A stretch of DNA of 64,000 nt, from positions 2,489,899 to 2,553,898 of the forward strand of contig OZ022590.1 in the NCBI GenBank assembly GCA_963669155.1, written 5' to 3'. The stretch is from Arbacia lixula. Lineage: Eukaryota; Echinodermata; Echinoidea; Arbacioida; Arbaciidae. Shown one piece after another: positions 16,396 through 63,770 of the stretch. Numbering within the stretch: position 1 is the first letter of the stretch; each line of letters opens with the position of its first letter. Below the pieces are notes generated by a model. That model ran no database searches. It saw nothing but the letters and a program-made list of their open reading frames with translations, and was not told the origin of the DNA. The translations under genes were made by a program, and so were the position numbers.

Positions 16396-19300
16396 CTATC
16401 GCTCGCTGGATTCGACAGACACGGAATCCTCGGTAGAGTTCGAGGCAGAACGTCTGAAACGAGCTGCAGAGAGAGAAAGAAGTGACAAATCAAAAACAAG
16501 AAATATGAATTATTATCATTCATGATGTGCTCTGCAAAATCAATTTAAACGAATTAATTGCCAAATAATAAAAAGTAGGGTCATAAGATGCCATCTTCTC
16601 ATGAATTAACACAAAATATGTTTTGCATACATCATTGTCATATTGTGCTTATCGATCAGTCTGTGAGCATCACACATTTCTTTACAAAGAACGAGAGAGA
16701 GACATAGAGAGGCAGAGAGAGACACAGAGACAGAGAGATAGAGACAGAGACAGAGACAGAGACAGAGACAGAAACAGAAACAGAGACATAGACAGAGACA
16801 GAGACAGAGATAGAGACAGAGACAGAGACAGAGACAGAGACAGAGACAGAAACAGAAACAGAGACATAGACAGAGACAGAGACAGAGACAGAGGCAGAGA
16901 CAGAGATAGAGATAGAGACAGAGACAGAGACAGAAACAGAGACATAGACAGAGACAGAGACAGAGACAGAGACAGAAACAGAGACAGAAACAGAGACATA
17001 GACAGAGACAGAGACAGAGACAGAGACAGAAACAGAGACAGAAACAGAGACAGAAACAGATACAGAAACAGAGACAGAGACAGAGACAGAGACAGAGACA
17101 GAGACAGAGACAGAAACAGAGACAGAAACAGAGACATAGACAGAGACAGAGACAGAGATAGAGACAGCGACAGAGACAGAGACAGAGACAGAGACGGTGA
17201 CATAGACAGAGACAGAGACAGAGATAGAGACAGAGGCAGAGACAGAGACAGAGACAGAAACAGAAACAGAGACATAGACAGAGACAGAGACAGAGACAGA
17301 GGCAGAGACAGAGACAGAGACGGTGACAGAGACAGAGGCAGAGACAGCGACAGAGACAGAGACAGAGACAGAGACAGAGACAGAGACAGAGGCAGAGACA
17401 GAGACACAGACAGAGACAGAGACAGAGACAGAGACAGAGACAGAAACAGAGGCAGAGACAGAGACAGAGACAGAGACAGAAACAGAGGCAGAGACAGAGA
17501 CAGAGACAGAGACAGAGACAGAGACAGAGACAGAGACAGAGACAGAGATAGAGACAGAGACAGAGACAGAGACAGAGACAGAAACAGAAACAGAGACATA
17601 GACAGAGACAGAGACAGAGACAGAGGCAGAGACAGAGACAGAGACGGTGACAGAGACAGAGGCAGAGACAGCGACAGAGACAGAGACAGAGACAGAGACA
17701 GAGACAGAGACAGAGGCAGAGACAGAGACACAGACAGAGACAGAGACAGAGACAGAGACAGAGACAGAAACAGAGGCAGAGACAGAGACAGAGACAGAGA
17801 CAGAAACAGAGGCAGAGACAGAGACAGAGACAGAGACAGAGACAGAGACAGAGACAGAGACAGAGACAGAGATAGAGACAGAGACAGAGACAGAGACAGA
17901 GACAGAAACAGAAACAGAGACATAGACAGAGACAGAGACAGAGACAGAGGCAGAGACAGAGACAGAGACGGTGACAGAGACAGAGGCAGAGACAGCGACA
18001 GAGACAGAGACAGAGACAGAGACAGAGACAGAGACAGAGGCAGAGACAGAGACACAGACAGAGACAGAGACAGAGACAGAGACAGAGGCAGAAACAGAGG
18101 CAGAGACAGAGACAGAGACAGAGACAGAGACAGAAACAGAGGCAGAGACAGAGACAGAGACAGAAACAGAGACAGAAACAGAGACAGAGACAGAGACAGA
18201 GACAGAAACAGAGGCAGATACAGAGACAGAGACAAAGACAGAGAGAGAGACAGAGACAGAAACAGAGACAGAAACAGAGACAGAAACAGAGACAGAGACA
18301 GAGACAGAGACAAAGACAGAGAGAGAGACAGAGACAGAAACAGAGACAGAAACAGAGACAGAAACAGAGACAGAAACAGAGACAGAGACAGAGACAGAGA
18401 CAGAAACAGAGACAGAAACAGAGACAGAAACAGAGACAGAAACAGAGACAGAGACAGAGACAGAGACAGAGACAGAGACAGAGACAGAAACAGAAACAGA
18501 GACAGAGACAGAGACAGAGACAGAGACAGAGACAGAGGCAGAAACAGAGGCAGAGACAGAGACAGAGACAGAGACAGAGACAGAAACAGAGGCAGAGACA
18601 GAGACAGAGACAGAGACAGAGACAGAGACAGAGACAGAGGCAGAAACAGAGGCAGAGACAGAGACAGAGACAGAGACAGAGACAGAAACAGAGGCAGAGA
18701 CAGAGACAGAGACAGAGACAGAGACAGAGACAGAGACAGAAACAGAGACAGAGACAGAGACAGAAACAGAGACAGAAACAGAGACAGAAACAGAGACAGA
18801 AACAGAGACAGAGACAGAAACAGAGACAGAAACAGAGACAGAGACAGAGACAGAGACAGAAACAGAGGCAGATACAGAGACAGAAACAGAGACAGAGACA
18901 GAGACAGAGACAGAAACAGAGACAGAAACAGAGACAGAGACAGAGACAGAGACAGAAACAGAGGCAGATACAGAGACAGAGACAAAGACAGAGAGAGAGA
19001 CAGAGACAGAAACAGAGACAGAAACAGAGACAGAGACAGAGACAGAGACAGAGACAGAGACAGAGGCAGAGACAGAAACAGAGACAGAAACAGAGACAGA
19101 GACAGAGACAGAGACAAAGACAGAGAGAGAGACAGAGACAGAAACAGAGACAGAAACAGAGACAGAAACAGAGACAGAAACAGAGACAGAGACAGAGACA
19201 GAGACAGAAACAGAGACAGAAACAGAGACAGAAACAGAGACAGAAACAGAGACAGAGACAGAGACAGAGACAGAGACAGAGACAGAGACAGAAACAGAAA

Positions 19301-21739
19301 CAGAGACAGAGACAGAGACAGAGACAGAGACAGAGGCAGAAACAGAGGCAGAGACAGAGACAGAGACAGAGACAGAGACAGAAACAGAGGCAGAGACAGA
19401 GACAGAGACAGAGACAGAGACAGAGACAGAGACAGAGGCAGAAACAGAGGCAGAGACAGAGACAGAGACAGAGACAGAGACAGAAACAGAGGCAGAGACA
19501 GAGACAGAGACAGAGACAGAGACAGAGACAGAGACAGAAACAGAGACAGAGACAGAGACAGAAACAGAGACAGAAACAGAGACAGAAACAGAGACAGAAA
19601 CAGAGACAGAGACAGAAACAGAGACAGAAACAGAGACAGAGACAGAGACAGAGACAGAAACAGAGGCAGATACAGAGACAGAAACAGAGACAGAAACAGA
19701 GACAGAGACAGAAACAGAGACAGAAACAGAGACAGAGACAGAGACAGAGACAGAAACAGAGGCAGATACAGAGACAGAGACAAAGACAGAGAGAGAGACA
19801 GAGACAGAAACAGAGACAGAAACAGAGACAGAAACAGAGACAGAGACAGAGACAGAGACAAAGACAGAGAGAGAGACAGAGACAGAAACAGAGACAGAAA
19901 CAGAGACAGAAACAGAGACAGAAACAGAGACAGAGACAGAGACAGAGACAGAAACAGAGACAGAAACAGAGACAGAAACAGAGACAGAGACAGAGACAGA
20001 GACAGAGACAGAGACAGAGACAGAGACAGAGACAGAAACAGAAACAGAGACATAGACAGAGACAGAGACAGAGACAGAGGCAGAGACAGAGATAGAGATA
20101 GAGACAGAGACAGAAAAAGAGACATAGAGAGAGAGAGACAGAGAGAGAGAGACAGAGAGAGACAGAGACAGAGATAGAGACAGAGGCAGAGACAGGCAGA
20201 CTGACGGAGAGAGAAGCCGACGTGTGTTAGTTATTCAGTTTTGTTGCAAGCAGCCAACTCACCGAGGTTAGTGACGCGAACGACTGGGGTGCAGACGTGC
20301 TCGAGGACGTCACACGCAGACACGAAGTTGATGCCCGCCGTACCGAGCTCGCCTTCCTCCGCCATGTTGAGGTACCTCATAGCCTCCGGGGAGGTGCTGT
20401 CCAGCAACTCGTTGATGAAGTCCTCGTTGCACTCGGGAGCAGCCATGAAGTTTGGGCACAGGCTTGCGAAGACGGCCCTGATGGTCGTAGCTGTTGGCAA
20501 TGCTGGGTAGATGGACGAAAGGGTGAGGGTGATATTTTGTTGAATTCAAAAACATAACTCCATGTAAAACTTGTACCTAAATGCGACATAGACAATTGTA
20601 CTCTCAAATTATTTCGTTTCATTTTGTCAGGCATTCCAGCATTGAAATGCGATGCACAGAAACTTATAGCTTTTGTATTTAAAGTATTATGTATTTTAAT
20701 TATTTGAAAGGAATGTGTTGCGTTGGTTTCTTAGGATAGGTCAAAATTTACGGTCAACTTCTATTCAATAATTCAGTTTCATCTTCAGCTGGTGCATCAT
20801 TCAATCATTGAAAGTGTTGTAAAGAAATACTATATAGCTTTTACAGATTTATAACATAGTTTGACCTTAAAGTAAGGGAGAACATTGTACGTACGAAAGA
20901 AATAAATTTCCTAGGATTGATAAAAACTAAACGAATACAACACTTCTGTGCAATGTACGATACTTAATCATATACTTCAGATGTAATCGCGGGGAGACAA
21001 ATTCAAATTATCGATGAATTCTACCCAAAAAAATACAAACGAAAGTCGACCAATCCTCACCTGTAGCTTGATGTACTGTGGCATATGCGGCCAGACAGAC
21101 GCAGAGGATAACGGACATCTTTGTCTGAGGAGAGAAACAAACAGGAATGTGAATCTAACTGTTCATGCGCCATTGAAGCATTTATGCACTGGTAACCATG
21201 GTAACACACGCCATTCCCATAGATCAATATGGAGTTTGACAGTGAAGAGGTTAATGAAAAGCCCATGAAACCAAAATATCCTTGTCGATTGTAAACGAAG
21301 GTTTGAAAAGACCTATCATGACTACTCCATGCCATTACAAGCATGAAGAGTGAACGGTGTTGATTTATATATTGTATTCATACACTCGTAAATGTGAAAT
21401 AAATTCAGACGAATTACAGGATTACTGCATATTGTAGCACACTGTTAAACCATTTGTCGTGTATGATTGTGAATTTTCGTCCATATCCAGGTTATATGAC
21501 ACATAATATCAAACGAATTATGATGTGACTGTATAATATAGAAAATGATGATGGTTTTTAGAAATGAAAATATCTACTTCTCGTGGAAAACATGAAAGCG
21601 TGTGGATAGTGGGATCCATTTGTGACATTAACTTTGTTATGTGCTGATAAAGGGAAGTATTATAACTGAACAGTTAAAGTATAGACTTTGGACAAACGTT
21701 GTGAATAAGTAAAAACGACTTATCACTTACCATTGCCAT
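16396..21739 (-). CDS. Gene A: secreted four-cysteine peptide (126 aa, 4 exons)
   Basis: Exons in reading order: 21739-21731 (ATGGCAATG), 21124-21061, 20502-20263, 16463-16396; all borders are AG/GT and phases 0, 1, 1 join cleanly. The product has a signal peptide (MTKMSVILCVCLAAYATVHQ) and then a mature part with four cysteines: LCPNF, ECNED, ACDVL, HVCTP (C-x8-C ... C-x6-C). The tail exon gives ARFRRSASNSTEDSVSVESS followed by ER and the stop; it holds an N-glycosylation site (NST) and a furin-like RFRR. I do not recognise the family. It is likely secreted; function unknown. It is the most diverged member (LNMAEEGELG where others have IKMAEEEELG). Head-to-head with gene B. Intron 3 contains a 3.5-kb hexamer array. 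A polyA signal (AATAAA, minus strand) lies at 16185-16180. Confidence 0.85.
16692..20216. repeat. GACAGA/GAGACA hexamer array with higher-order repeats
   Basis: About 3.5 kb of GAGACA units with GAAACA, GAGGCA, GATACA, GACATA and GACGGT variants. A marker GACGGTGACAGAGACAGAGG recurs at 324-bp spacing (17319, 17643, 17967). In the right half the marker GGCAGATACAGAGACAG recurs at 18213, 18963 and 19761 (750-798 bp). Because the unit is 6 bp without stop codons in some frames, both strands show >1,100-codon open frames (Arg-Asp and Ser-Leu); these are not genes. The array fills intron 3 of gene A. Confidence 0.95.
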
Positions 21740-21845
21740 GTTGATGTGTGTAGAGAGAGTCGTGTGCTCAGGTAGGTTCCAGGAATGAGTCAAGTTATCT
21801 CTGTCTCTGGAGCAAGTTGTGATGATACCACAACGAAGTCGGCCC

Positions 21846-21852
21846 TTTTATA
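21846..21852 (-). promoter_or_regulatory. TATA box of gene A
   Basis: TATAAAA on the minus strand within CCGATATATCCTATAAAAGG, 107 nt upstream of the gene A ATG. The same block precedes gene F. Confidence 0.75.
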
Positions 21853-23242: not shown

Positions 23243-23249
23243 TATAAAA
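23243..23249 (+). promoter_or_regulatory. TATA box of gene B
   Basis: TATAAAA in TCCACCAAATCATATAAAAT, 106 nt before the gene B ATG. The flanking sequence and the downstream GGTTGATTTC..GTGTTTTCATCACAACTCG are shared with the gene C promoter. Confidence 0.75.
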
Positions 23250-23354: not shown

Positions 23355-26300
23355 ATGGCTATGGTGAGTATGTAATACTGATACCCAATGTATACCTTTT
23401 CATCTTAAGTTTAAGTTAAGAGTCTTTCAATTCTTTTCGAATAGTTAATCTTTGTACAGTCACTGTATGAAATTATTCAATTATAATTTGCATTAATAAA
23501 AAAACCCATTAAATTCGCTCCCATATTTTGCTGTGATGCCGTTTGCACTAGGCTTAAGTCTGTACATAGTTTGCTAACATGTTAATGTATGGAATCATAC
23601 TTGTATTAGAATTGAATCAACTCAAACATTTATACTCGCTCCAATATTCAGTTACGGTGATGACATTTAAGCCTTAGATATTTGGTATTGTATAGGTCTC
23701 TTATTATATATATATACACACATATATATGGTATTATGTAGGTCCAGCATAAATGAAAAAAAAGCTCTGTTGTTGATGCGATGTAACACAATATAAGTTC
23801 CAAACGCGTGATTTAGACTGTAAGTTACTCGTTCCCACCCCCCCCCCCTCCCAACCTCGCTTGTCCCACTCCACTTGTATACCTCTCCCAGTGGTACTAA
23901 TTCAGGTTTCCTTGTTGCTATGTCGCTAATTCCTCAGACAAAGATGTCCGTTATCCTCTGCGTCTGTCTGGCCGCATATGCCACAGTACATCAAGCTACA
24001 GGTGAGAATTTGTTGATTTTCGTTTGTATCTCTTTTTCGTGGGATGATTCCATAAATCGAAGATGTTTCCCAGAGCGTAATCAGTAGTGCCATTCTAGAA
24101 AAATTAGAAAAATCTCGAAGTTAGAAAAATCGCGAAGTTAGAAAAATCGCGAAGGGTGAAAGTTGCCTAGCAGTTGTACGAAAAGCCGAATGGTCCTATT
24201 GTTCCTGTCCCCTAAGTTTGAGATCTTTTTTAAGTTCACGAGTTTCCAAGCCCCAATGAGAATGGCACTAATGAGAAAGTTTCCGAATGCCACTTAAAAA
24301 AAAATGTGCCTCAAAAGTCTAGCTATACATATATTTTAAAGGGATCTAAAAAAAAGCTCGATTGAGGTTGAGGACAGATGCTGCGGCTTGAACCCAGGAG
24401 GGTCTATGACTGGAGATGTGACGCCACGTTCTTGTACAAGTCCAATGATTAAGTCCTGCGATTTAGCTAGTCGCAGAGTTTGAGTCGTATGACTGGTCGG
24501 GTCTGGTCGGGTCGGATCGTGTCGTATGCGGTGGCCTTCACGTGGGGTACGACAGTCGAAAGTTGGATCATGACTTGTCCGCGTTATCTGGCTTAAACCA
24601 TAAACAATTATGATGTGTAGGCAAGGAGAAGTATATGGCCTTATCAATTTGATTCCGAAAATGTCATGAAGATAACTTGTGGGTGATAAAGGCAATTATA
24701 ATTAAATTTAAAGTCTTTTCTCTCTCATTACGCAGAAAGAAAACCCCCATGGACTGTTCATACAAACAAATAAACTTTCTAATTTTTCTATAAGCTTCTA
24801 AACTATCCAGTCTTTATTCAAAGCCACAGTCGGATATTAAGGGTAACACGTTTTTCCTTTCCACGGCCTAGCTGTCCCATCGGCCACGACTGACATCACC
24901 GTTGTCTTCGCCATCCTTTGCCCTGATTTCACGGAGGCTGCCGAGTGCAACGAGGACTTCATCGACGAGCTTCTGGGTAGCTCCGCCACCTCTGAGATGG
25001 CCAAGAAGTACATCAAGATGGCGGAGGAAGAGGAGCTCGGCACGGCGACCGGTAACCAGTTCGAGTCTGCGTGTGAGGTCCTTGATCACGTCTGCAGCCC
25101 CATCGTTCGCGTCACCAACCTCGGTAAGATTGCATTTGATGAAAGGGAGGTCACTGTAGACCATAACTTGAGGACATATTTAATCAACATCAAATATTGA
25201 CTTAAGAGTATCCATAATTTAAGTGCCCCCCCCCCCCACCCCATATCACATAGTACTCATTGCATTACTTGGAAGTATCCGGACTGTATATATACTTTTA
25301 AGTTTGAAGATATATCCCAAAGTAAAGTTTCTGATTTTTTATTACAGTTCGATTATACCGAAAGTAATATAGATATTTTAGGGATTGATTCAAAACTCTT
25401 ACGAATTGGGGCTCCAGTACTATCTATTTCACTTTGCTATTTATACAATGAAAGTTTAATTAATGGTATAGTTCCTATAGATTGGAAATTAGCAAAGACA
25501 ACACCCATATATAAAGGCAAAGGTAATAAGAGTGACCCTACAAATTATAGACCTATTTCTGTTATGTGTCATATTTCTAAGTTGCTTGAAAAGGAATTAA
25601 AAAAACAATTGTTAAATTATCTTCTTAAGAATGACCTTATTAATATTGATCAATCAGCATTTTTACCAAACCATTCTACTACTACATGTCTACATCGTGC
25701 AGTCGATGATTGGTTAGAAGCTTTTAACGAACATGAACTTGTAGCTACCTGTTTTCTCGATATATCCAAATGTTTTGATTCAATTGATCACAAATTATTA
25801 CTTATGAAATTGCAAGGATATGGAATTAGAGAGTCAGAATTGCTTTGGTTTTCTAATTACTTATCACAAAGATCCCAGAAGGTTTTTTGTCATGGTGAAT
25901 TATCTAGATCAAGGAATATTATGACAGGGGTGCCCCAAGGAAGTGTTCTGGGACCAATATTGTTTTTGCTATTTATAAATGATATTTCTGATTCTCTGAA
26001 ATCATGTTCTTGTAATATATTCGCTGATGATGTTGTTATCTATTACGCACACAAGGATATAAATATTGTTAAAACCGTACTTCAAAATGATTTAGATTTA
26101 TTAGCTAATTGGTATACAAATAACAAGTTACGTATCAATATTGACAAAACAAAGGTAATGTTACTTAGTGCTACTTCAACTCATCATCTTAATATATCTA
26201 TAGGCAAGGATGAAATTGAACAAGTTGACCATGTTCGATATTTAGGAATTGACATTGATAATCATCTTAATTGGAATGTTTATGTTCAGAATCTTACCAA

Positions 26301-28431
26301 ATCTATTGCTAAAAAGATTTTCTCACTTCGCAAAATGAGTCAATACCTTGATTTCAACTCCCTAAATCTTATGTATAAAACTATTATTCAGCCTTGTTTT
26401 GATTATTCTTGTTCCGTATGGGGGAATAGTTCTTCAAAAAACAAAGAAATCTTAATGCGTCTACAAAAGAGAGCAGCACGTATCGTTACTTGTAACTATG
26501 ACTATGAAAATTCAAATGGTTTAGATATTTTTCGATCTTTAAAATGGAAAACAGTTGAAGAACGAAGGGATTATTTTCTTGCAACAAATATGTTTAAATG
26601 TATACATGGTCTGGCACCTATTCGTCTGTGCAATAGTATCGACATGCTTTTTGAAAGACATAGATTTAATACCAGAGCAGCTGATACCTTAAATGTTGTA
26701 ATACCGAAACCAAATTTAGAATCATATAAGAACAGTTTAAGATATGCAGGAGGAAAAAGGTGGAATGCGTTACCAGAAGCAATGAAAAACTCAAGCTCTC
26801 TTCAATCTTTCAAAAGCATGTATAAGAAAATGTTTTTTTAATTCAATTTCATGTAAATGTACAACCAGAAAGCAACCAATAATGTGTCTCCTAGCAACAA
26901 CTCTTTTTTTTTCCGTCGCTCCTATCATTTTTTTTTAATTTCAAAATCGCTTTGCAGGCTTAGTAATAGAATGGCTGACAGGTGTGTTACGTTTGTGCTA
27001 ATGTGTTGTGTTGAGTGCATCTTTACTGTTAGTTTTCTCTTCCCTTTGTTCTTGGGTGATTGCACTTTCTGTATGATTTGACTGAATGTTTATAGTTGTT
27101 ATACACTTTTGATTGTATTGTTTAGCTTGTGTGTTGTTTTTTGCTGAGCTTGCAAGTGGTATATCGTCCTTCATATATATCTTCTTTTTTTTTAATTTGT
27201 AAATATCAATAATACATTTTTTAATAACGATAAATAAACTTTACTGGTAAAGCGTTTTAAAATTATTGGTTGTTTTTACTGGTTATCCTGACTGTTGTAT
27301 GTTTTGTTATATTGATATGTTACACAGGACCTTGATGTAAAACAGCTTATGCTGATCTTGTCATCCTGTTTAAATATGTTTGAATAAAATAAAAAATAAA
27401 TAAAAAATACTTCTGATCGATTTAAAAAAAAAACACAGCAAGAACAAGACTCGCTACATTTCGCTAAATCTCTGTTCAAACGTGATCAAAGTAAGATCGC
27501 GCTGAGTCTCGAATGTTACATTCCATGGAGGACAAGTCATTATTATCAAAATCAAGCCTTTAAAAAAAATTGTTTCATAACAACAAGAACAAGACTCGCT
27601 ACATCTGGCTACATCTCGCTAAATCTCTGTTCAAACACGGTCAAGGTATAAGATCACGCTATTCCTGAATAGCCAAGTCAATATCGAGCGTTTTTTTTAA
27701 ACTGCAAGAACAAGACTAGTTACATCTCACTAAACCTCGCTAAATCTCTGTTCAAACACGGTCAAGGTTTAAGATCACGCTATTCCTGAATAGCCAAGTC
27801 AATATCAAGCGGTTTTATTAAACAGCAAGAACAAGACTAGTTATATCTCACTAAATCTCTGTCCAAACGCGATCAAAGTATAAGATCGCGCTATTCCTGA
27901 ATGTTACATGCACTTAAAACCAAGCGTTTTATAACACGTTTGTGTTTCATAACAGTAAGAACATGACTCGCTACATCTCGTTCAAACTCGATCAAAGTTT
28001 AAGATCGCGCTATTCCTGAATGTTACATCCAAGTAAATTCAATATCATTAAAACCAAGCGTTTTATAACACTTTGGTGTTTCAGAACAGTACGAAGAAGA
28101 CTCGCTACATCTCGGTATTATAGGTCGTCGATCTATTTTTGTATTAGATTATTGTACTTTGTGGCACTTCCAATTTCGTAAAATTGCACTAATTTATGGG
28201 AAAAAATAGCTGGTGGCAATTTGTATCAGCTTGGATTCACGTACCTGTTCGTCAATATCCTCTTCCTACACTATCTTTGCTTTGTTTGTTTGTTTGTCTG
28301 ATTTGATCGTTAGTTGAATTGATAATGCGTTTTTCATCTCTTTCTGGTAATCTGCAGCTCGTTTCGTACGTTCTTCCTCGAACTCGACCGAGACGTCAAC
28401 TTCCACTTCTGCCGAATCCAGCGAGCGATAG
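23355..28431 (+). CDS. Gene B: secreted four-cysteine peptide (132 aa, 4 exons)
   Basis: Exons: 23355-23363 (ATGGCTATG), 23938-24001, 24872-25123, 28358-28431. The signal exon is the same as in gene A, but the mature exon is of the D/E type: AVPSATTDITVVFAILCPDF, ECNEDFIDELLGSSATSEM, IKMAEEEELGTATGNQFES and ACEVLDHVCSPIVRVTNL. Four cysteines are kept (C-x8-C, C-x6-C). The tail reads ARFVRSSSNSTETSTSTSAE then SSER and stop; it has the NST site but RFVR in place of RFRR. Intron 3 (3.2 kb) holds a truncated non-LTR retrotransposon and a 125-bp tandem array. AATAAA lies at 28724-28729. Unknown family, probably secreted. Confidence 0.87.
24414..24535. repeat. Dispersed MITE-like repeat family 4, copy 2
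   Basis: Shares CCTGCGATTTAGCTAGTCGC and the GTATGCGGTGGCC end with 1731-1876. In intron 2 of gene B. Confidence 0.5.
25300..26841 (+). pseudogene. Reverse transcriptase ORF of the non-LTR element (5'-truncated)
   Basis: Open and in frame from before 25300 to the TAA at 26841; the first internal ATG is at 25564. Upstream of that ATG the frame reads the RT start region (WKLAKTTPIYKGKG, NYRPIS). Later blocks are FLDISKCFDSIDH, GVPQGSVLGPILFLLFINDI and the catalytic NIFADDVVIY, then the C-terminal region with RLQKRAARI and a WNALP end, as in the CR1/L2/Jockey group. The frame is intact in what remains, so the insertion looks fairly recent, but without its 5' part it cannot transpose by itself. 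Confidence 0.85.
25300..27408 (+). mobile_element. Truncated CR1/L2-like non-LTR retrotransposon in gene B intron 3
   Basis: The 5' end is truncated within the reverse transcriptase region; the 3' end is an AATAAA-rich tail (about 27384-27408). No endonuclease domain remains. The element is AT-richer than the surrounding exons. The start is approximate: it is where conserved reverse-transcriptase sequence begins. Confidence 0.85.
27430..28130. repeat. ~125-bp tandem array in gene B intron 3
   Basis: About six units starting near 27433, 27577, 27702, 27823, 27952 and 28085. Each has AACAGCAAGAACAAGACTCG, CTCGCTAAATCTCTGTTCAA and AAGATCACGCTATTCCTGAA. It begins 25 bp after the end of the retrotransposon. 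Confidence 0.85.
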
Positions 28432-28937
28432 GGATGGTCAGAGGTCAAAGGCCTTTGAATTCAAATGATTGCTCCAGTTCCTATCTTATCTGAAGTGGTC
28501 GCTGGAAAAACATGATAATATTTATGTAAAGATAATCATTGCAGTGCACTGCGTATTTAATAATATTTTTGTTGGTAATAGTTTATAACAATTATTCTCC
28601 ATTGTTTTATAACTCCTTTACAATGCATATGATTTGTTCCCACACACACACACACTTCCTTCAACGGGACATATTACTTCAGCATTGCATATTGTGAAGC
28701 GTAACTTGCTGCTAATTAATCCAAATAAATCAACAAAATAAGTTGGACCCAGACCTTCTTTTGGAGAAGTTGATATTTAAAATTACTGAAAACTTTGATT
28801 GGTTTCTGTGAAATATATCTATATATATATATACCCAAATGAATTATGATTAATCATCCGTTGGAATAAAAAAATGGAATTTGAATATACATAGATTGTG
28901 TGCTCATTGCATTTCTGAGATTTGGTGTATAATATAA

Positions 28938-38985: not shown

Positions 38986-39014
38986 TATTCTACTTCGTAA
39001 CGCCTAATTTATTC

Positions 39015-39155
39015 GGAATCATGTCTGGGTTGTACACCTGTCACCGATCGGAAATACCACACATTCAAAGTCTATGGGACTTCATTCATATGCAAAAAAG
39101 TGTCCTCCGCGCCAAATAGTATAAGAAGCCCACTCAAAGCCACATTCATCAGTGT
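39015..39155 (+). repeat. DIRS left inverted terminal repeat
   Basis: Near-identical in inverse orientation to 43965-44105, including GGAATCATGTCTGGGTTGTA and GCCACATTCATCAGT. It probably holds the element promoter. Confidence 0.92.
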
Positions 39156-39247
39156 ACATTTTTGTGGCCGATTGGTTATCTACTACGAACGACGGGGACA
39201 ATCGTCCATCACCTTTCTACAAGCTACACACTAACTACAACGGCATT

Positions 39248-42624: not shown

Positions 42625-43416
42625 AACTTGTTTTGAACTTTTTAGCTGAAGAATACGAATCTGGTTCAGCTTATAGTACTTTGAATATTTTGCGCAGTTC
42701 ATTATCGTCTTTTCTCCTTCCGTGTGAAGGTCATGCGGTCGGTTCCCACCCGTTGGTGTCACGCTTCATGAAAGGTGTATTCCACCCGAGACCTCCTCAG
42801 CCTAGATATACTTGTACATGGGACGTAAAAGTCGTCCTAGATCATCTTCGAACATTTACTCCAAATGACAAAATTTCTTTTGAGACGCTAACTCTTAAAC
42901 TTGTTATGCTCATTGCCCTCATCTCTGGCAGACGATCACATACAATCGCTCACATTGTTACGAAAGACTCTATTGTGTCAAATTCTTCAGTTTCATCATC
43001 TGATTAAAACCAGCAAACCTAGTCAACCGGCTCCGGTCATACAGCTACCGGCCTATCCAGAGGACGAACGGATATGCGTTCTCCAAGTTCTACGCGAATA
43101 TCTGATAAGGACATCGCATTGTAGACATGATGTTCGATACCTTTTCGTGTCCATTAATCGTCCTCATCGTAATGTTTCACCACAAACTGTGAGCCGATGG
43201 CTGAAGAAGGTCCTTCATCTAGCCGGAATCGACACATCGCTATTCAAGGGACATAGTACTCGCGCTGCATCAACCAGTGCAGCTTTTCGGAATGGTACAT
43301 CTATTGACACTATTCTGGCAACTGCTGGATGGAATTCTGTAAGAACTTTCGAAAATTTCTACAACAAACCATTGAATTTGACGAAAGAGTCATTCGATAT
43401 TGAATCACTTCAATAA
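42456..43416 (+). pseudogene. DIRS ORF3: tyrosine recombinase, frameshifted
   Basis: Two overlapping frames (42456-43007 and 42901-43416) together make one recombinase. The first carries the DNA-binding domain (IIAHSWRKSTQKSYNSAIKK) and the first catalytic Arg (SGRRSH, 42930-42935). The second carries H-S-T-R (KGHSTRAA, 43252-43263), AGW and the nucleophile Tyr (FENFYN, 43360-43362). A single-base shift between about 42940 and 43010 separates them. All catalytic residues survive, so inactivation looks recent, unless the shift is programmed or a sequencing error. The enzyme would integrate the circular DNA intermediate. Confidence 0.85.
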
Positions 43417-43731
43417 CTGTTATTGAATTTTTCGAACTCCAATAATTTGATAAGTCTGACAAAAAGAGCAGCTTATGTTTATTGCATGATTATGGCAATT
43501 TTCTCTCCTTTTTTTTTATATACCATGCTTTTTCAGTGGAAAATGTTCACAGGAAATTGGAGTTGTTTGTAGCAAGCACACGAGTAAAACGAACGTGCAA
43601 TATTTTATTTTGTTTGTTGTTGATCTTAGGGCAGGTTAAGCCCGCTAAAGAATAAAGACGGGAACAACCTTACTTAACTGTTGCCCCTTTTCTTCTGTTG
43701 TTCAGTCTCATTCAATAGTTGCTTTGAAATC

Positions 43732-43864
43732 CCAGACATGATTCCGAATAAATTAGGCGTTACGAAGTAGAATAATTAAATTAAACGAGATTTAAATGAA
43801 ATTTAATATTGAAGTTTAATTGTTATTCTACGAAGTATAAGCCTAATATGAGGAATCATGTCCC
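43732..43864 (+). repeat. DIRS internal complementary region
   Basis: First half (ATTCCGAATAAATTAGGCGT) is the complement of the left end; second half (AAATTTAATATTGAAGTTTA) is the complement of the right end. This is the template for completing the element ends during circle formation. Confidence 0.93.
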
Positions 43865-43964
43865 TCCCTGATGTTTGTGCTGTCAGTATGATGATACAAT
43901 GATTGACTTCGTAATCTTTTCCCACCCTATTCTTGCTTGATTGAATGAGCCTGTTGTCTTTGAA

Positions 43965-44105
43965 TACTGATGAATGTGGCTTTGAGTGGGCTTCTTATAC
44001 TATTTGGCGCGGAGGACACTTTTTTGCATATGAATGAAGTCCCATAGACTTTGAATGTGTGGTATTTCCGATCGGTGACAGGTGTACAACCCAGACATGA
44101 TTCCT
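43965..44105 (-). repeat. DIRS right inverted terminal repeat
   Basis: Inverse copy of 39015-39155, with GGCGCGGAGGACACTTTTTT and TTTCCGATCGGTGACAGGTG. Confidence 0.92.
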
Positions 44106-44185
44106 CATATTAGGCTTATACTTCGTAGAATAACAATTAAACTTCAATATTAAATTTCATTTAAATCTCGTTTAATTTAATTATT

Positions 44186-45279
44186 GTACTGATGAATTTC
44201 AGCATTCAATGAAAACATGTGCATGAGATATTAGGTTTGAAAAGTATCTACGCATTAAACAGGCAATTTGCATTGTATTCATATCAAAAACATTAAGCAA
44301 CGTTCAAACAGGGGTAACGAAGATTCAAGGTAATGAGAACTGGCACATAATACGGAGGATTCTGTTCTGTATAAGCGATGAAGTCTGACTACTTAAGAAG
44401 GATGCAACGAACCCCAAAACGCATTGCAATTAGCGATTGAAATCACTATACAACTCCAAAATGTCTTTTTGTTTCCCTTCATTAAACACACGAGTAATCT
44501 AAATCATTAATGCACATTTTGGAGGGAATTGCACGTCATTATTCAAATGACTAAATTGCTTCTTTTACATTATATCTGCGAATAGCTTAATGAACAATTT
44601 CGAATAATTATTCGATTTATCAAGCAGTTTCAAGCCTTTCTATGTTATACACGAAGAAAAAGAGTAATCGCTGTCATAATAGCAGGCATTGTATAAAATA
44701 CACTGGTACACTTCACTAGCCACATTGTGTTTGTAATAATAATAATTGTTCATGAATGATGCCAAAAGCATGGCAAAGGTAAGAAAATTGCAACGGGACA
44801 CATGTGTTTCAATTACAAGACGTTCGTTTTATTCCCTCTTAAACTTGATTATGTTATTTATTTGACGGGAAGCACGGAGAGTGAATTGAATTCACAACGT
44901 CACAGATACCCCTGTTATTCATTCTGCAAATGCTTGGCGAACAGTAGACTCATGAATTACAACGTGTTGCGTAGCGTGGGAAATGACACTGCATGAATTA
45001 TGTTTTCACATTATCATTGGGCCTTTACATTACCAGTCTATTCGAAAATACAACCTGGTGGAAATTAGATTTTTCTTTTTTATTTGTCACCCAAATTTTC
45101 ATAAACTTCGCATATTGACTATAAGATCTAGTATACATCTAGTACTTTGCAAACTAACATACTTGTTTGCCATCAAAAATTCAATTCAATATTTTGATAT
45201 CAAGTACAAATCTGTACCGTGAATAAAATTATAAGGCTACAGAAACCGTGGATGATTTATCATACCAGGCATGTGTTAT
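44186..45279. other. AT-rich intergenic, nothing recognised
   Basis: No exon or repeat with clear relatives in this window. Confidence 0.35.
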
Positions 45280-48972: not shown

Positions 48973-49248
48973 GCTTCACAAACTGCTGAAGAAGTATGTT
49001 CCAAACATGTATGTCTGCGTTTGGAATAAATCGACAAATTTTCATTTCATGCGCATTGCAAAGGATTCGTGAAACAATTGAGAAGGATTGTCAAAACCAT
49101 TTAAAATCAATGTAATTAAATCTTTAATGTACTTCGGTGATTATATGGTCACGAATAAGTAAACGTAAATAAAACTACCACTTCAGATTAGATAGGAAGT
49201 GGATTAATCATTCTATCACGTGATGACCTCGATGACCTCTGACCAGCC

Positions 49249-51340
49249 CTATCGCTCGCTTGATTCGGCAGAAGTGGAAGTGGACGTCTCGGTAGAGTTC
49301 GAGGAAGAACGTACGAAACGAGCTGCAGATTAACATGAATGGAAAATAAACATACTTTTAATTCAACTAACGATCAGATCAGACAAACAAACAAACAAAG
49401 CAAAGATACATTAGTTAGAAAGATGATATAGATTGATAGGAACATCGATACAAGGTGCCAAATATTGCAACCAGCTTTCATTTTCCAATCAATCAGTTTT
49501 GTTTAACACATAAGACAAAACAATCGAAGAGTTCGAAAATACAAATACAAAACATATATAAACAGATGTACCTAATTTAGTCGATCAAGAGTCATGCAAT
49601 AAATAATAGGTTCATCTATGGTGAAACTCATTCCAAACAATGAACCAATAGACAAATAATATGATTTTAAATACGTCAACATGTGATGAGCCACGTGACA
49701 AGAGGTTCTCTTTGATTGGTCCACTATAGGCCTACGCCATGCTGACGGTGTATTCGCATTTTGAGTATAACCACATCTAATCCATTTTTAGGAATATCCC
49801 CTCAAAGTCTTCTTATACCAACGCTTTTTGTTTTTGTCATCATTTTTTTAGGTACAATGTGATCACTAATTCATTGTATAAAAGATGGTGCCTCGGAGAA
49901 TTGTGCTACAGGGGGCATTCCGATTCCAAACGATGACTCCTGGTCACGGCAAAGGGTTATGACCAAGGAATGGGACGAGGGGGTGGGGCACTACAAACAT
50001 GGGCACTATTAATTAACTGCGATCTTACCGAGGTTAGTGACGCGAACGATGGGGCTGCAGACGTGATCAAGGACCTCACATGCAGACTCGAACTGGTCAC
50101 CGGTCGCCGTGCCGAGCTCCTCTTCCTCCGCCATCTTGATGTACTTCTTGGCGTCCAGAGACGTGGAGGTGCTGTCCAGCAGCTCGTCAATGAACTCCTC
50201 ATTGCACTCGGGAGCCGCCATGAAGTCCGGACACAGGCTGGCGAGGGCGTCCCTAATGGTGGCTGTTGGTACAGCTGTGTAGATGGACGAAAGGAGTGAA
50301 CGAGAATCATCTGTTTACATTCTTTATGCGCCATTTAGGTATTTTGGCACCGTTAGTACACACCATTCATGTCACTACCCATATTGCAGTATGAATTCTC
50401 GCGTTTTTAGCAAACTAAAACACAATAGAGTACCGAAGTGGTGTCGTCATATGAGCATGTTGTCAAGACAATTGGCTCTAAACAAACTCGCTCCAGTGAG
50501 AGGTGTAGCGGTCCGATATTGTCTATTAGACTAGCGTAGAGCGTTGTGATCACGGCTGCTTGCTCTACCCGCTTTGTTTAGAACCAGTTGTCTTGACTAT
50601 AATGTTCAAATGACGTCACACTTCGGTACTCTATTCAACCTTTAACCTGTATGTGACATTGTCAAATTATTTCGAAAAACGAAAATCGACCAAATTCTCA
50701 CCTGTAGCTTGATGTACTGTGGCATAAGCGGCCAGACAGACGCAGAGGATAACGGACATCTTTGTCTGCGGAAATAACGGCAAAGCAGCAATGAATCGCA
50801 AATTAGTACATTGGGAGGAGTGGTGTGTGTGCAGTGCGGTAAGAGATTGACAGGAGGGGGGGGGGGGGGGGGGGGTAAGACAGACAACAGTCTAAATCAT
50901 GCGTTTGAAACACCCATTCTGTTACAAAACATCAAAAACATGATTATATTTTCGTACGAAATCATGCTCTGATGAAAGAGGACTTATATATATAAAACCA
51001 GGCATAGCACATCTGTAATTACCGTAGAAAATATAGGAACGAGTATAATGTTTGAGATAATTCAAATATAAACAAGACATGTATGATTTCATACAGTGAC
51101 TGCACTATAATCATCTGTTAACAAATAATGTATAGACTCAGGCTGGTGCTTTCGTGACCATATCCTCACAATATTTGGGAGCGTCTGTTTTTCTTCAATT
51201 AATGTAAATTTCTGTTTATATGAATTTAGACAGTGACTTCACAATAATCAACTGTTCTCAAGAACTTGATAGAGTGTTATGTAGAGTTAAAGCTGAAGAG
51301 GTACACGTTGGTATCAGTATTAATTACTCACCATAGCCAT
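49249..51340 (-). CDS. Gene C: secreted four-cysteine peptide (130 aa, 4 exons)
   Basis: Exons in reading order: 51340-51332 (ATGGCTATG), 50765-50702, 50274-50029, 49322-49249. The signal exon equals that of A and B (MTKMSVILCVCLAAYATVHQ). The mature exon is a mosaic: its first half is A-like (AVPTATIRDALASLCPDFMA, APECNE, LLDSTS) and its second half is nearly identical to B (KKYIKMAEEEELGTATGDQF, ACEVLDHVCSPIVRVTNL). The four cysteines keep the C-x8-C ... C-x6-C pattern. The tail is ARFVRSSSNSTETSTSTSAE plus SSER. Intron 2 contains a MITE (50426-50633). It is head-to-head with D and tail-to-tail with B. Family unknown; secretion inferred from the signal peptide. Confidence 0.87.
50426..50633. 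mobile_element. MITE family 1, copy 3 (gene C intron 2)
   Basis: TA, GAGTACCGAAGTGGTGTCGT ... TGACGTCACACTTCGGTACT C, TA: a clean TA-flanked pair of inverted ends. Shorter than copy 1 by an internal deletion. Confidence 0.9.
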
Positions 51341-51448: not shown

Positions 51449-51455
51449 TTTTATA
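51449..51455 (-). promoter_or_regulatory. TATA box of gene C
   Basis: TATAAAA on the minus strand in CCACCAAATCATATAAAAAG, 109 nt upstream of the ATG; the surrounding 150 bp match the gene B promoter. Confidence 0.75.
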
Positions 51456-52631: not shown

Positions 52632-52998
52632 AATGTTTAACGTTGTTGTAGGTTTCATCATATTTGTCAAGTTTGTTGATTGATGTATTTACACATCGTT
52701 TAGGACAGAAGGGATTATAAATTAGGGATTAGAATTTAGGGATTGAAATAACCACTCGGTTTAGTACAAACAAACAGACAGACAAACATACCGAATTGCG
52801 TAATCGAATATTTGTTTGTTTGACGTTGTTGAAGGTCTCATCATTTTGTCAAGTTTGTTGATTGATTGATTTACTCATTGCTTCGGACAGAAGGGATTAT
52901 AAATCAGGGATTAGAATTTAGTGATTTAAATGACCACTCAGTTTAGAACAAACAAACAGACAAGCAAACATCCCATTGCGCAATCGAATATTTGTTTT
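52632..52998. repeat. ~183-bp tandem duplication in the C/D spacer
   Basis: Two head-to-tail copies (52632-52814 and 52815-52998), both with GTCAAGTTTGTTGATTGAT, GGACAGAAGGGATTATAAAT and CAATCGAATATTTGTTT, ending 60 bp upstream of the gene D TATA box. Confidence 0.88.
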
Positions 52999-53057: not shown

Positions 53058-53064
53058 TATAAAA
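53058..53064 (+). promoter_or_regulatory. TATA box of gene D
   Basis: TATAAAA in GGGAAACCTATAAAAGAGG, 103 nt before the gene D ATG. Confidence 0.75.
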
Positions 53065-53166: not shown

Positions 53167-55739
53167 ATGGCAGTGGTAAGTTTGGTTTAACTATATCTGT
53201 AAGCTGTGAATATCACAGTTTAAATTTTCATGTATTATTTTAACTACTAGTATAGTGTTGATGATAGTGCATACCTAAAGTGTGTATGATCATTGGTTAT
53301 ACAAAGCATGTTAACTGTGTAGTTGTGTATACAGGGTATATAGCCGTTTTTTGTGTTATGTATTTTTTTACGGAAAAATATTCTAAAATATTTCTAAAAC
53401 AGCCAAACGGAAACTCAATAAACAAGCCATAACTATTATTGGAAAAAGATTTATATAACATTTTTATCAGTAATAATGCAATACGATATTACAAGATGTA
53501 TTTATACGATTTTTTTTTTCTTTAAGAAATCTCTGAAAAAAATGATAATTGTCATGATCGTGATACTTGGAAAAAAACGAAACTTCAAATATAATGCATT
53601 GAAGACAGCCAGTCCCTTTTTCAGATCACCACAAAACCATCGAAACACTGGCAAAACATAAAGAGAAGTGTTAGCAAGCTCTATATTCACAATTTGAAAC
53701 TGATACGTAGTGTAAAATTCAAATAATGCATGTAAACAACGTCTGATTAATAGTCTTTACCTCAGTCTCTTAGCAGTTTGTGTTGAAATATCTGCTTTAT
53801 TGATTAATCTGTTTATTAAATTATAAAACGCATTATGAAAAAAAATGTTCTATGGAAGGAATCGTCTCCAAAGTTTGGTAGTTACTCATAAAATTAGGAT
53901 TTAACACACGCATAATAACCACATAGATACTGTAACAATGACTAATACTTTGGGTACAATCTAAGAATAGCAATAACCCAGATTTGAGCGATTTGTCACT
54001 TGCTTCCTTTTGTCAGAGTAGGCCAGTATTGTACTTAGTCATTTCGAGTCGAGGACGTGAACTATTTTTACACTGGTTTTTGTGTGTCGTTTTTCTTTCA
54101 GATGAAATTCTCAGCTGTTTTCTGCCTCGTTCTCGTGGCCTACGCTACACTCCACGCTGGAGGTAAGACTCGACTCCCTGCTCGACTGTACTAAATCAGG
54201 AAAGAGCGCTAGGTGGAGGGAAAAGGACCGGGTGGGGAGGGGTAAAAGGGGGGGTGGGTGGGGTGTGGGTGTACGCTCTACAATGTTCAACCTCTAAAAC
54301 TTGCGGGTACCTGGTTAAACAGCACGATTATATATCGAGCAAAGTAATGTTGTCCGCAAATTGAAAGTGCGTGTGTGTGTTGGGGGGGGGGGGGGGGTGT
54401 TACCATCCACAAGCACATTTGAGAAATTATCGAGAAGGTGTGTTCAAAGTAGCACAGCGAAAGGCCATCAAAATGAAGCCCTCCTAAGCACATTATTATA
54501 TCTAGCTCGCTCTCAAACAGGATAGCGGTTTCTCCGAAATCTTCAGCATAAAAATGTCAGAATATCGAGCACACCTGTGCCCCCCCCCCCCCCCCCTCAC
54601 CTCCGCCTTGAGCCTTTGGGCAACCAACTTGTTTTGAGGGGTGCGACGAAATCGGTAGATAAAGAGTGACCGAATGTGGGTAGGGTAGTGATAGACGGTG
54701 TATGAAAATAATAGGAATTCATACATGGACATAATGTTGAGACAGGGTGTGAAGAGTGTAGTAAATGTGTAAGTATAATAACAGTAATGCTTTAATTATG
54801 TATTAAAACAAAATATTGTATGCATGTATGCGTTCATGGATTACACTCTTTACACAATGTCAATATTTGGCTTCTGGCTTCATCGAAGTGTTTATGCAAT
54901 AAATCTTATCAAATCAAATCAAATCAATCGTTTATGTGTCCATCCCAACAGCGGTCCCATCGCCCACTATTGACATCACCGCTGTCTTCGCCGGCCTGTG
55001 TCCGGACTTCACGGCGGCTGCCGAGTGCAACGAGGACTTCATCAACGAGCTGCTGGGTAGCTCCGCCACCTCTGAGACAGCCAAGAAGTACATCAAGATG
55101 GCGGAGGAAGAGGAGCTAGGCACGGCGGCGGGCGGCCAATTCGAGTCTGCGTGTGAGGTCCTTGATCACGTTTGCAGCCCAATCGTCCGCGTCACAAACC
55201 TCGGTGAGTTGGCGAGCTCTTTCAGCGGAGCAAGGAGAATCAAAGTCAATAGCAAACTACCCCTTTTACAAATCTCAAATGAGCATCTAAAAGCCACCGC
55301 AAATGACACGATCCGATTAGTCGTAGGCGCTTACGACTGCAGAATCGTGACTATAAATCGTGTCGCCTGTAGTGCATGATAAACGTGGATGTAAGGGTTA
55401 TCACGTAATATCGTATTGTTAGCTCATTCTATTAACATGATTAACTCTGATTTCTAAACAGTATCGTGCATAACTGTTAAAAACTGTTAAATAGCTCAAA
55501 CCTTCTTCTTACTAACTCTCATTAAGTTTAAAGCGGAAAAATGCTGAATACATTGATGCTAGGATAGTGTTCTTGGTGGGTGGCCCGCAATAACATGTAT
55601 AATGTTCATTAGATAAAAAACATTATTTGATGACTTTTGTATTCTTCTTCCCTTCTGCTTTGCAGCTCGTTTCGTACGTTCTTCCTCAAACTCTACCGAG
55701 ACGTCAACTTCCACTTCTGCCGAATCCAGCGAGCGATAG
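53167..55739 (+). CDS. Gene D: secreted four-cysteine peptide (131 aa, 4 exons)
   Basis: Exons: 53167-53175 (ATGGCAGTG), 54102-54162, 54952-55203, 55666-55739. The signal peptide differs from A-C: MKFSAVFCLVLVAYATLHAG after the three exon-1 codons. The mature exon reads AVPSPTIDITAVFAGLCPDF, ECNEDFINELLGSSATSET, IKMAEEEELGTAAGGQFES and ACEVLDHVCSPIVRVTNL. The tail is ARFVRSSSNSTETSTSTSAE then SSER. Four mature cysteines, acidic helices and an N-glycosylation site. A partial MITE lies in intron 1. The frame reads through the exon 3 donor for 58 codons, but that extension has no match in the paralogues. Unknown family. Confidence 0.88.
53950..54026. mobile_element. MITE family 2, right-end fragment (gene D intron 1)
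   Basis: Matches the last ~78 bp of the full copies (GATTTGTCACTTGCTTCCTT, TTTTGTCAGAGTAGG). No left end found; a solo remnant 76 bp before the signal exon. Confidence 0.8.
55275..55380. repeat. Dispersed MITE-like repeat family 4, fragment
   Basis: AAAGCCACCGCAAATGACAC ... ATCGTGTCGCCTG, imperfect inverted ends related to 56735-56913. In intron 3 of gene D. Confidence 0.45.
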
Positions 55740-60025: not shown

Positions 60026-62540
60026 CTATCGCTCGCTTGATTCGGCAGAAGTAGAAGTAGACGTCTCGGTAGAGTTCGAAGAAGAACGTCTGAAGCGAGC
60101 TGCAGGAGTGTAGAAAAGGAAGGAACAAAAATAACACGTCTGCAAATTCGCAAACATCACTTAAAGACATTTTATTCATATGTCAAAAAGTCACTAGCGA
60201 CCTCCGCTTGAAATGTTCGCGGTTAGGTGAATACAAAAAACGAATTCTCTAGGCCTATGATCGTTTCATACTAACGCATGTAGCGTATCATGCCAATAAA
60301 ATAAATGAATCACGTGGGGTGCACAAAAACACAGCAACAGCTACTTAATTTATATTTAAGTGACGTCACTAGCGCATATCGATGATTTTTATTAAGACGA
60401 TACTATGTATATGTACTTTGGGCAATTCGTGTGCGTATTCACATTAAGATGTTATGTTCACGTTAAGCATGTTAAGAATATTTTGTTTAAGAATGAAGAA
60501 ATCCCAATCCCAACTTGGGTATCGAACTGTCTTTAAAATATCAGTTAACAGTACATTCCACAGTTAAAAAGAAAATTCACCGTTGAAGTTAATAATCTAC
60601 AACACAATTTGCCAAACATGTTTTTCTTACGTTGCACATTAATTTGAAATCCTCACCAAATAATTGCAAACAATTTTCGTGATAGCATTGGTTAAGACAG
60701 TGGCTTTGTTCAATTCAAACAGCTGGATCATTAATAGCCAACTCACCGAGGTTTGTAACGCGGACGACTGGGCTGCAGACGTGATCAAGGACCTCACATG
60801 CAGACTCGAATTGGCCGCCGGTCGCCGTGACTAGCTCCTCTTCCTCCGCCATCTTGATGTACTTCTTGGCCGTCTCAGAGGTGGCAGAGCTACCCAGGAG
60901 CTCGTCGATAAAGTCCGCGTTGCACTCCTCAACCGACCTGTAGTCCGGGCACAGGATGGCGAAGACAGCGGTGATGTCGGTGGTGGTCGATGGGATTGCT
61001 GTGGCGTGGATGAAATGGGAGAATAGAGTCTGGTCATCTTATGAATGATATGAGTTAAACTTCAACAACCGCCATTACAACTTGGCACTGTCATAAACCT
61101 GGGGGGGGGGGGAGGGGCAGCATGAGAAATGATGTAAATTTATACCAAGACTGTATGAAGTGAGCTCGCTTCATACTGATGCTTCCTTCCTTGTTCATAC
61201 AGAGTTCAAATATGTACACATGGCGGCCTGCTCACTCAGCTGGTATTATTCATATAAGCCCCCCCCCCCTCCCCCCACCTTCAGATTTAAAATAATTTGA
61301 AATTAGCGTTCGTGATTTTGGGGGATTCACCAACCCAGACCTTGAGCTTTTCAGCGGTGCGAAAGAAGGAAGTTCATTTAGCCCCTCCCCCCCCCCTCCT
61401 CTGTCCACCGCCCCGCCCCCCCCCCCGCCCCCACACCTACACCCACACCGCCCCCCCCCCTCCCCCATGCAACATATTTAAGTAGATTCAACCCTTACCT
61501 CCAGCGTGGTGGAGAGTAGAATAGGCTACGAAGAAGAGGCAGAAAACAGCGGTGAATTTCATCTGGAATGAAAAAACATAAGCAAAGATTATTATATTTT
61601 GCCAATAAGCCGTTTTCTAAATGTATTGAAAACTTACCATCAAACTTCATATAAACACGTAATCAAAGTCACTCGTATTTTGTGATTCATCCCTAAAGGG
61701 TGGCATTCACAGTGAATTTTTTAGTTGTTGCTACTCGGACAAGCTTTGGGGTTTCCATATTGTTTGAAAGACCTGCATAAAATCGGCATACATAACAACA
61801 AATGTTATAGCGTATTGCGCTTTCGCGTTTTTGTTTGAACGAATAGTTCTATGACATTGTTTGCAATGATTATAGAAAAGCATCTAATAACACCAATGAA
61901 GATGTCGCAATCATTGTAGTTCGAAGAATTTCCTGTAGGCTTATCATAGTAATGAAAGCTTTAATTTCTTTCTCTTAATAATACGCTCCCATTTTCTTCA
62001 CAAGATAATTCTAACATGATTGCTAGACGTTAACAGATAGGTATGGCAGCTTTTTTTTTTTTTTTTATAATGAACGGTAAGAAGATCTTTTCTCGTGCCT
62101 TGTGTTTAAGAACTGTCTTCTTTAAGATATGATATATTAAAGATTTAAAATATCGAATCTAATAATTTAACGAGGTTTTCAGCAAGTATTGCTATTTGAC
62201 ACAATGGAAATACTCTGAAATGTTATTGTTGTAAAATTATTAATCTTTTGACAAAACTTCCACGTTAAGTTTTACTAATCCTTCGTATCAGAGTGTGGTT
62301 AAAAGTGATGTGAAAACAAAAACAGTTTCTATTTGAATGGATAACTCACTCTTGTTAAAAATCAATATGGCTATGAACGCAACAGTCGGTCAGGGTATTG
62401 GAGAGAAAAAATGCCGATTCAGATTCTCTGTTTGCCTGTCAAGCGAAGTTAATTTGTATTCATAGTATAACAGTGACCAACGAAACAGCGGTCTTTAAGT
62501 CAAAGTTACAGAACGCACCTTTGTAACTTACCATTGCCAT
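60026..62540 (-). CDS. Gene E: secreted four-cysteine peptide (132 aa, 4 exons)
   Basis: Exons in reading order: 62540-62532 (ATGGCAATG), 61562-61499, 60998-60747, 60099-60026; all phases join. The signal exon is of the D type with one extra His codon (MKFTAVFCLFFVAYSTLHHA). The mature exon reads AIPSTTTDITAVFAILCPDY, RSVEECNADFIDELLGSS, IKMAEEEELVTATGGQFES and ACEVLDHVCSPVVRVTNL. The tail is ARFRRSSSNSTETSTSTSTS-like: it has RFRR, a furin-type site, as in gene A, and the NST site. It is tail-to-tail with D and head-to-head with F. Unknown family, likely secreted. Confidence 0.87.
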
Positions 62541-62647: not shown

Positions 62648-62654
62648 TTTTATA
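62648..62654 (-). promoter_or_regulatory. TATA box of gene E
   Basis: TATAAAA on the minus strand in AGAATTATATAAAAGGGATC, 108 nt upstream of the ATG. Confidence 0.75.
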
Positions 62655-62879
62655 TAATTCTTGGAGGTTAAATGAAATAATGCATGCATGCACTGCATTC
62701 AACCATTGCTTTGTTTTCAAAATGCAATTATTCATTGATTGTGCAATGTGAAGATACTGACGGGCCTATTTGCGCATTGTTCATTGTATTTTATGACGGA
62801 CGGGCGGCGTGGTTTTGTGCGTGAGTGGTATCCGAACTTGGCACGTAGGGTATTCGTTACCACGCAAACAGATCGCACT

Positions 62880-63140
62880 TCAATTTACTCACACCCTCCC
62901 CCCTTTTCCGCTCTCCCTTCTTCTTCTTCTTCTTTGACTTTTTTACACACCCCCCCCCCCCCGCACACACACACACCCACACACACATACCCTTTGTCTC
63001 TACTTATATCAGACTCGTTCTATCTTCATTTGTATACAATTAAGTATCTTTTTGTTTTAAATCTCTCTCTCTCTCTTTCGTATTCGCCCCCCCCCCCACT
63101 ATAAAAGAACAATACCCCTTATTTTTGCCCCCAACCCCAC

Positions 63141-63184
<44 letters not shown>

Positions 63185-63300
63185 ACTGATGGACATATCC
63201 CCAAACTCCACCCCACCCATAAATCAACCCCTCCCAAACCCAACCCACCCACCCCACCACACCCCACCCCACCCCCACCCCAGCCCACCCCAGCTCTCTT
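62880..63300. repeat. C/T- and CA-rich low-complexity spacer
   Basis: Poly-C near 62949 and 63087, a (TC)n run at 63145-63180 and CCCCACCC repeats. It fills the middle of the E/F divergent spacer. Confidence 0.85.
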
Positions 63301-63423
63301 ATCTGGTTGAAATGCATGAACGTGATTGATCTATGTCCCATTTTCGACAATAGAGCTGCGTGGTTTCACGGGTACACGAATTCGGATTAATATTGATTTC
63401 ACCGTAATAACCTTCAGCTTGAC

Positions 63424-63660
63424 AGATGATCACATCCAACTTTTTACTGATCCAAACTCGCTGCGACGTGCTAATGACCAATCCGGTAGATATGCCATTA
63501 AAACAAACAAACGCTTTGACAAACAATCGCATGATGAAACCATAAATGACACCTCACCTTCACGGAGTTTGACAAATCATAGGGGTAACATTAACGTACT
63601 TTGAATAGTTAATTATTTTTGTATAGTTTTAGGTCACCGATATATCCTATAAAAGAGCCG
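63424..63660 (+). promoter_or_regulatory. Gene F upstream region, conserved with gene A
   Basis: About 235 bp matching the inverse of 21840-22085 upstream of gene A: ACAGATGATCACATCCAACT, GGGGTAACATTAACGTACT and CCGATATATCCTATAAAAG. The TATA box is at 63648-63654, 108 nt before the ATG. Confidence 0.8.
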
Positions 63661-63761
63661 ACTTTGTTGCGGTACTCATCACAACTTGCTCCAGAGACAG
63701 AGATAACTTGACTCATTCTTGCAACCTACCTGAGCACACGACTCTCTCTACACACATCAAC

Positions 63762-63770
63762 ATGGCAATG
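63762..63770 (+). CDS. Gene F: first coding exon of a sixth peptide gene (cut by window end)
   Basis: ATGGCAATG followed by gtaagtgata, exactly as gene A exon 1. The 5' UTR (CTTGCTCCAGAGACAGAGAT ... CTCTACACACATCAAC) is nearly identical to that of gene A. The remaining exons lie beyond the window. It is divergent from gene E with 1.2 kb between the start codons. Confidence 0.75.

Follow-up and report, generated by a model that had tools for sequence, protein, structure and literature searches.

A 64,000-nucleotide stretch of the Arbacia lixula genome (G000:C15:2489899-2553898, hereafter the window; the whole genome comprises 607 Mb in 590 contigs) holds a cluster of genes whose products are small acidic proteins that have four cysteines and a predicted signal peptide, a family that appears unclassified within the libraries searched. 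Judged from their DNA, the seven loci of this family in the genome are real, intact and selectively maintained genes. We put at about even the chance that their products are exported to a barrier or body fluid as acidic proteins braced by disulfides and probably glycosylated, perhaps working as paired subunits. New here are the position of the TATA box, two types of cysteine exon distributed across the gene pairs, mosaic genes, and uniform tail motifs.

Rebuilt from the DNA, the window contains five complete genes (g1 to g5) and the first exon of g6, whose remaining three exons lie within 3 kb outside the window. The seventh copy, g7, is on the minus strand of the same contig, about 0.7 Mb off (L009). 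All seven genes have exons of 9, 61–64, 240–252, and 68–74 nucleotides (nt), introns bounded by GT...AG with phases 0/1/1, and products of 126–132 amino acids (aa) with no internal stop. The initial annotation had described this four-exon structure with the same lengths and phases, and it was recovered in the five complete genes, with the first exon of g6 where it had been placed; the six members counted there are those of the window cluster, one fewer than in the genome. Queried with the g2 cysteine exon (expect value, E <= 0.001), the genome returned the same seven loci. With the g1 cysteine exon at E <= 10, these seven came back along with one further stretch at E 4.9; it contained three stops and was taken as a chance match. 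The long-form tail used as a genome query matched four of the seven tails, exactly the long-form ones. We also scanned the window together with L008, L009, and L022-L025 (56 kb) for exons, fragments, or pseudogenes beyond the seven genes, using blastn at E 1e-4 and tblastn at E 1, and detected none. Apart from the genes with 200 bases of promoter each, these sequences gave a single match, a run of 33 bases at 52785-52817, near g4.

The ratio of nonsynonymous to synonymous divergence (dN/dS, Nei–Gojobori) of the cysteine exon was 0.14–0.46 across 21 gene pairs. For the short tail exon, which is a weaker witness, it ranged from 0 to 0.80, and there were no amino-acid changes among the tails of g2, g3, and g4. 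The genes are thus more than a chance pattern, because all seven keep open frames with splice sites, the cysteine exon shows these low ratios, and TATAAAA stands near one position in every copy.

This heptamer begins 109–115 bases upstream of the start codon in 7/7 genes. Counting both strands and the six promoters, the window has 31 copies of it, and the chance of finding it within 8 positions is ~0.002 per promoter, the 8-base span and the promoter classes having been chosen after looking at the data. By identity over 200 bases there are four such classes, namely g1/g6/g7 (88–94%), g2/g3 (75%), g4, and g5, with 46–56% between classes. TATAAAA was the sole 7-mer common to the four classes (510 bases examined), and no word of 8 or 9 bases was common to all of them.

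At the protein level, each copy has a hydrophobic signal-like exon, as was claimed at the outset, followed by an acidic four-cysteine core (80–84 residues) and a tail of 22–24 residues rich in Ser, Thr, and Glu. The mature proteins are ~11 kDa with an isoelectric point (pI) of 4.2–4.5. The pattern C-x8-C ... C-x6-C, also reported earlier, is kept in 7/7 proteins, and the spacing between the two cysteine pairs is 41 in all genes but g1, where it is 38. Two other proposed signatures proved less uniform: the IKMAEEEELGTA block is exact in g2, g3, g4, g6, and g7 but reads LNMAEEGELGTA in g1 and IKMAEEEELVTA in g5, and the tail RSSSNSTE becomes RSASNSTE in g1. Every tail carries an R-x-x-R site (R-F-R-R in four of the seven, R-F-V-R in three), one N-X-S/T sequon, and three S-x-E motifs.

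The genes in the window form the divergent pairs g1/g2, g3/g4, and g5/g6, with start-exon gaps of 1615, 1826, and 1221 nt, in agreement with the three head-to-head pairs and 1.2–1.8 kb between start codons of the initial annotation. Their cysteine exons fall into type I (g1, g3, g6, g7) and type II (g2, g4, g5), which share no state in 12 alignment columns, three of them involving gaps. Support for this split was 100/100 in the tree built from exon-3 DNA and 99/99 in that built from whole proteins; the DNA tree did not resolve the branching within type I. All three pairs consist of one type I and one type II gene.

The exons of one gene do not always share one history. From promoter through signal exon, g3 resembles g2 (71% over 935 columns), as it does again within and around the tail exon (75% over 455 columns), whereas its cysteine exon and flanks are 92–94% identical to g6 and g7 versus 88% to g2. 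The tail-exon regions g2 28261-28447 and g3 49233-49419 are 88% identical over 187 nt, a similarity that extends past the exon and fits a mosaic origin. By these alignments, g3 is a mosaic of one lineage's ends and another lineage's cysteine exon. The signal exon of g1, g2, g3, g6, and g7 is identical or one base apart, and between promoter classes the aligned stretch around it covers only 92–129 bases. The signal exons of g4 and g5 are of a distinct kind, 85% alike mutually, and their synonymous divergence from the others is >1.8, calculated from about 15 sites only. Fisher tests of synonymous differences in exon 2 versus exon 3, on four hand-picked pairs with rounded counts and no correction, gave 0.003 for g1-g2, 0.008 for g2-g6, 0.056 for g2-g3, and 0.079 for g1-g4, whose signal exons differ in kind. 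These values are only suggestive of homogenisation of the signal exon across copies. Exchange of short tracts between copies would be the simplest account; alternatively, selection may act on the signal-exon DNA itself.

Database searches were carried out to look for relatives. Three of the seven proteins (g1, g2, and g5) were scanned against Pfam at E up to 10, and nothing rose above the family cut-offs (best E 0.1); PDB sequences gave no significant match (best E 0.39). With g2 as the query, 5.8 billion predicted proteins yielded nothing at E <= 10. No animal proteome in this set can be queried by name, and the negative result therefore carries little weight for other echinoderms. A profile of the seven sequences matched a single entry of the set, P0001 (E 4.9e-5, 36% identity over 87%), an unnamed 113-aa protein from a single 7.5-kb ENA contig. 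P0001 and the gene family have LCPDF and FESACEVLD-VC in common. However, P0001 has eight cysteines, only three of which align with the family's four; the second cysteine of the shared region comes 11, not 9, residues on and does not align, and a family-like tail is also missing from its predicted stretch. Searched against the genome at E <= 10, it matched the loci of g2 to g7 (5.6e-6 to 1.2e-3) but not g1, and nothing else; against the protein set it matched only itself, and against Pfam (E up to 10) nothing. The titles and abstracts retrieved from the open-access literature, with subscription papers and supplements outside the scope, contained no description of the gene family. "Unrecognised" holds only against the libraries searched, in which the profile and sequence searches gave one distant relative and no characterised family, and "four-cysteine" describes all seven copies but not that relative. 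Small clustered secreted families in one animal lineage are not rare per se.

If the products are indeed exported to a barrier or body fluid, the genes would be expressed strongly by secretory cells, and disulfides might hold the core together as a small bundle of helices. The proteins would be N-glycosylated, perhaps phosphorylated on the tail and possibly clipped at the R-x-x-R site, and would act outside the cell in mucus or in gut, coelomic, or gonadal fluid, with type I and type II possibly made together. Several points weigh against this picture. Genomic DNA is the entire evidence base for the genes, and the signal peptides were called by hydropathy and eye. The structure model, with four helices, is weak (predicted local distance difference test score, pLDDT, 53.9; predicted template modelling score, pTM, 0.40), and its comparison with the PDB, limited by that low confidence, gave no structural match. 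The TATA boxes indicate no single tissue. Moreover, classes g1/g6/g7 and g2/g3 have 43 bases at 84% in common around the TATA box; the classes are therefore not fully independent, and the fair count is three or four independent cases. No partner gene for g7 was found in 12.9 kb upstream. With three genes of each type, 6/15 random matchings (40%) are fully mixed, so the mixed pairing is not significant alone and was rejected as proof of heterodimers.

A role in host defence, with microbes as the target of the core or of a cleaved fragment, would suit clustered duplicates with a signal-like exon, cysteines, and TATA promoters. PpCrAMP of Patiria pectinifera, the sole sea-star antimicrobial peptide named in the accessible part of a review (PMC11767717), is likewise cysteine-rich. 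Compared by description only, PpCrAMP is a predicted beta-hairpin, whereas the family here is acidic and, by the weak model, helical. Typical antimicrobial peptides are cationic, whereas both the mature proteins and their cores here are strongly acidic (pI 4.05–4.45). A dN/dS below 0.5 over the cysteine exon shows conservation, with no arms-race mark at the whole-exon level; we regard this role as unlikely. A calcium-binding role in mucus or mineral, as acidic phosphoproteins that carry phosphate at the S-x-E sites of the tail, also seems quite unlikely to us. The three S-x-E motifs in 7/7 tails, the acidic core, and the unchanged tails of g2, g3, and g4 are in line with that proposal, but a Ser/Glu-rich tail easily contains such short motifs, and comparisons of short-tail with long-tail copies show no stronger constraint on the tail than on the core (dN/dS up to 0.80). 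The portion of a sea-star skeletal proteome at hand (PMC5460417) gives protein names without sequences and offers no test of it.

The R-F-R-R and R-F-V-R sites of the tails could also be cleavage points of a signalling prohormone or pheromone, with tail or core set free as the messenger, and the available text of PMC4772807 describes starfish precursors of 103–111 residues with acidic parts and cysteine-rich peptides. Yet a dibasic-flanked or amidated peptide is not evident, and the tails are nearly alike and hence would not be several distinct messengers. The cysteine pattern also differs from the insulin/relaxin motif CCxxxCxxxxxxxxC given in that source, as none of the seven mature proteins contains CC and the spacing is 8/41/6 or 8/38/6. 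We consider a messenger improbable. As a separate observation, an open frame elsewhere in the genome (L032, contig C22) encodes a C-terminal relaxin-type A chain, CCxxxCx8C, ending in cysteine. A P. pectinifera hormone A chain used as a genome query gave two weak matches (E 0.39 at 47% and E 0.58 at 55%), the first of them in this frame; a likeness as faint as this would speak against the genus Patiria as the source of the DNA. Finally, repeats and retroelements abound in the region, as might be expected if the loci were non-functional, either decaying duplicates or a chance pattern; against this stand the seven open frames with splice sites, purifying selection, and positioned TATA boxes, which make it extremely improbable in our view.

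Among known systems, the closest in arrangement are the mouse androgen-binding protein genes. In the available text of PMC2291036, Abpa-Abpbg form a duplicated cluster of two related gene types, mostly in head-to-head (5'-5') pairs, their products are disulfide-bridged heterodimers, and the genes evolve fast, with gene conversion discounted. The family here resembles the Abp/Fel d 1 secretoglobin pairs in its small proteins (secretion being predicted here), its head-to-head pairs of two related gene types, and possibly an all-helical fold. It differs from Abp in its conserved core and apparently exchanged exons, and from secretoglobins in its four cysteines spaced 8/41/6 and its separate tail exon. 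The likeness is one of arrangement, not descent; there is no sequence link, and membership is not claimed. The secretoglobin/uteroglobin subunit is a four-helix protein, and its Pfam model was not among the matches when g1, g2, and g5 were scanned at E up to 10. Saposin-like proteins have a six-cysteine pattern, whereas this family has four cysteines, and they were likewise not among the Pfam matches of these three proteins. Insect odorant-binding proteins, attractin pheromones, C8 domains, and helical cytokines were rejected, as the cysteine spacing does not fit them and no profile matched. Each divergent pair might be a cassette for two subunits of a secreted, disulfide-joined heterodimer under a shared intergenic switch, evolved independently of the androgen-binding-protein/Fel d 1 pairs, an idea that we rate as a long shot.

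Table 1. Positions of the genes and TATAAAA boxes in the window (offsets are relative to the start codon)
Feature	Position	Strand	Exons or offset
g1, type I	16396..21739	-	21739-21731, 21124-21061, 20502-20263, 16463-16396
g2, type II	23355..28431	+	23355-23363, 23938-24001, 24872-25123, 28358-28431
g3, type I cysteine exon in g2-like gene	49249..51340	-	51340-51332, 50765-50702, 50274-50029, 49322-49249
g4, type II	53167..55739	+	53167-53175, 54102-54162, 54952-55203, 55666-55739
g5, type II	60026..62540	-	62540-62532, 61562-61499, 60998-60747, 60099-60026
g6, type I	first exon 63762..63770	+	exons 2-4 past the window: L008 1267-1330, 1791-2036, 3223-3290
TATAAAA of g1	21846..21852	-	-113
TATAAAA of g2	23243..23249	+	-112
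TATAAAA of g3	51449..51455	-	-115
TATAAAA of g4	53058..53064	+	-109
TATAAAA of g5	62648..62654	-	-114
TATAAAA of g6	63648..63654	+	-114

Other elements lie within and around the genes. Intron 3 of g1 is mostly occupied by a 3.6-kb short-period repeat array (16605-20177), which is open in several frames on both strands, and intron 3 of g2 contains an open reverse-transcriptase frame at 25291-26838 (RVT_1, E 6e-37). Between g2 and g3, at 39010-44190, lies a retroelement, presumably DIRS-like, with a reverse transcriptase/RNase H frame and a tyrosine-recombinase frame (Phage_integrase, E 5e-8); its inverted repeats pair 39010-39158 with 43961-44109 (97%) and 43766-43862 with 44094-44190 (99%). 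Outside the cluster, 4650-8645 includes an ABC transporter piece at 4650-4889 (ABC_tran, E 1e-5) and a frame at 8364-8642 that resembles the same transporter gene and has no Pfam match.

If expressed, the seven genes would represent a protein family for which our searches turned up neither a Pfam model nor a solved relative. They would also constitute a natural experiment in which promoters, signal exons, cysteine exons, and tails have been recombined among seven copies. For studying how duplicates exchange sequence, the cluster is a small and testable case, and it may also show an independent origin of divergently paired subunit genes. Should the heterodimer cassette be true, the mosaic g3 would be the conversion event that produced a mixed pair.

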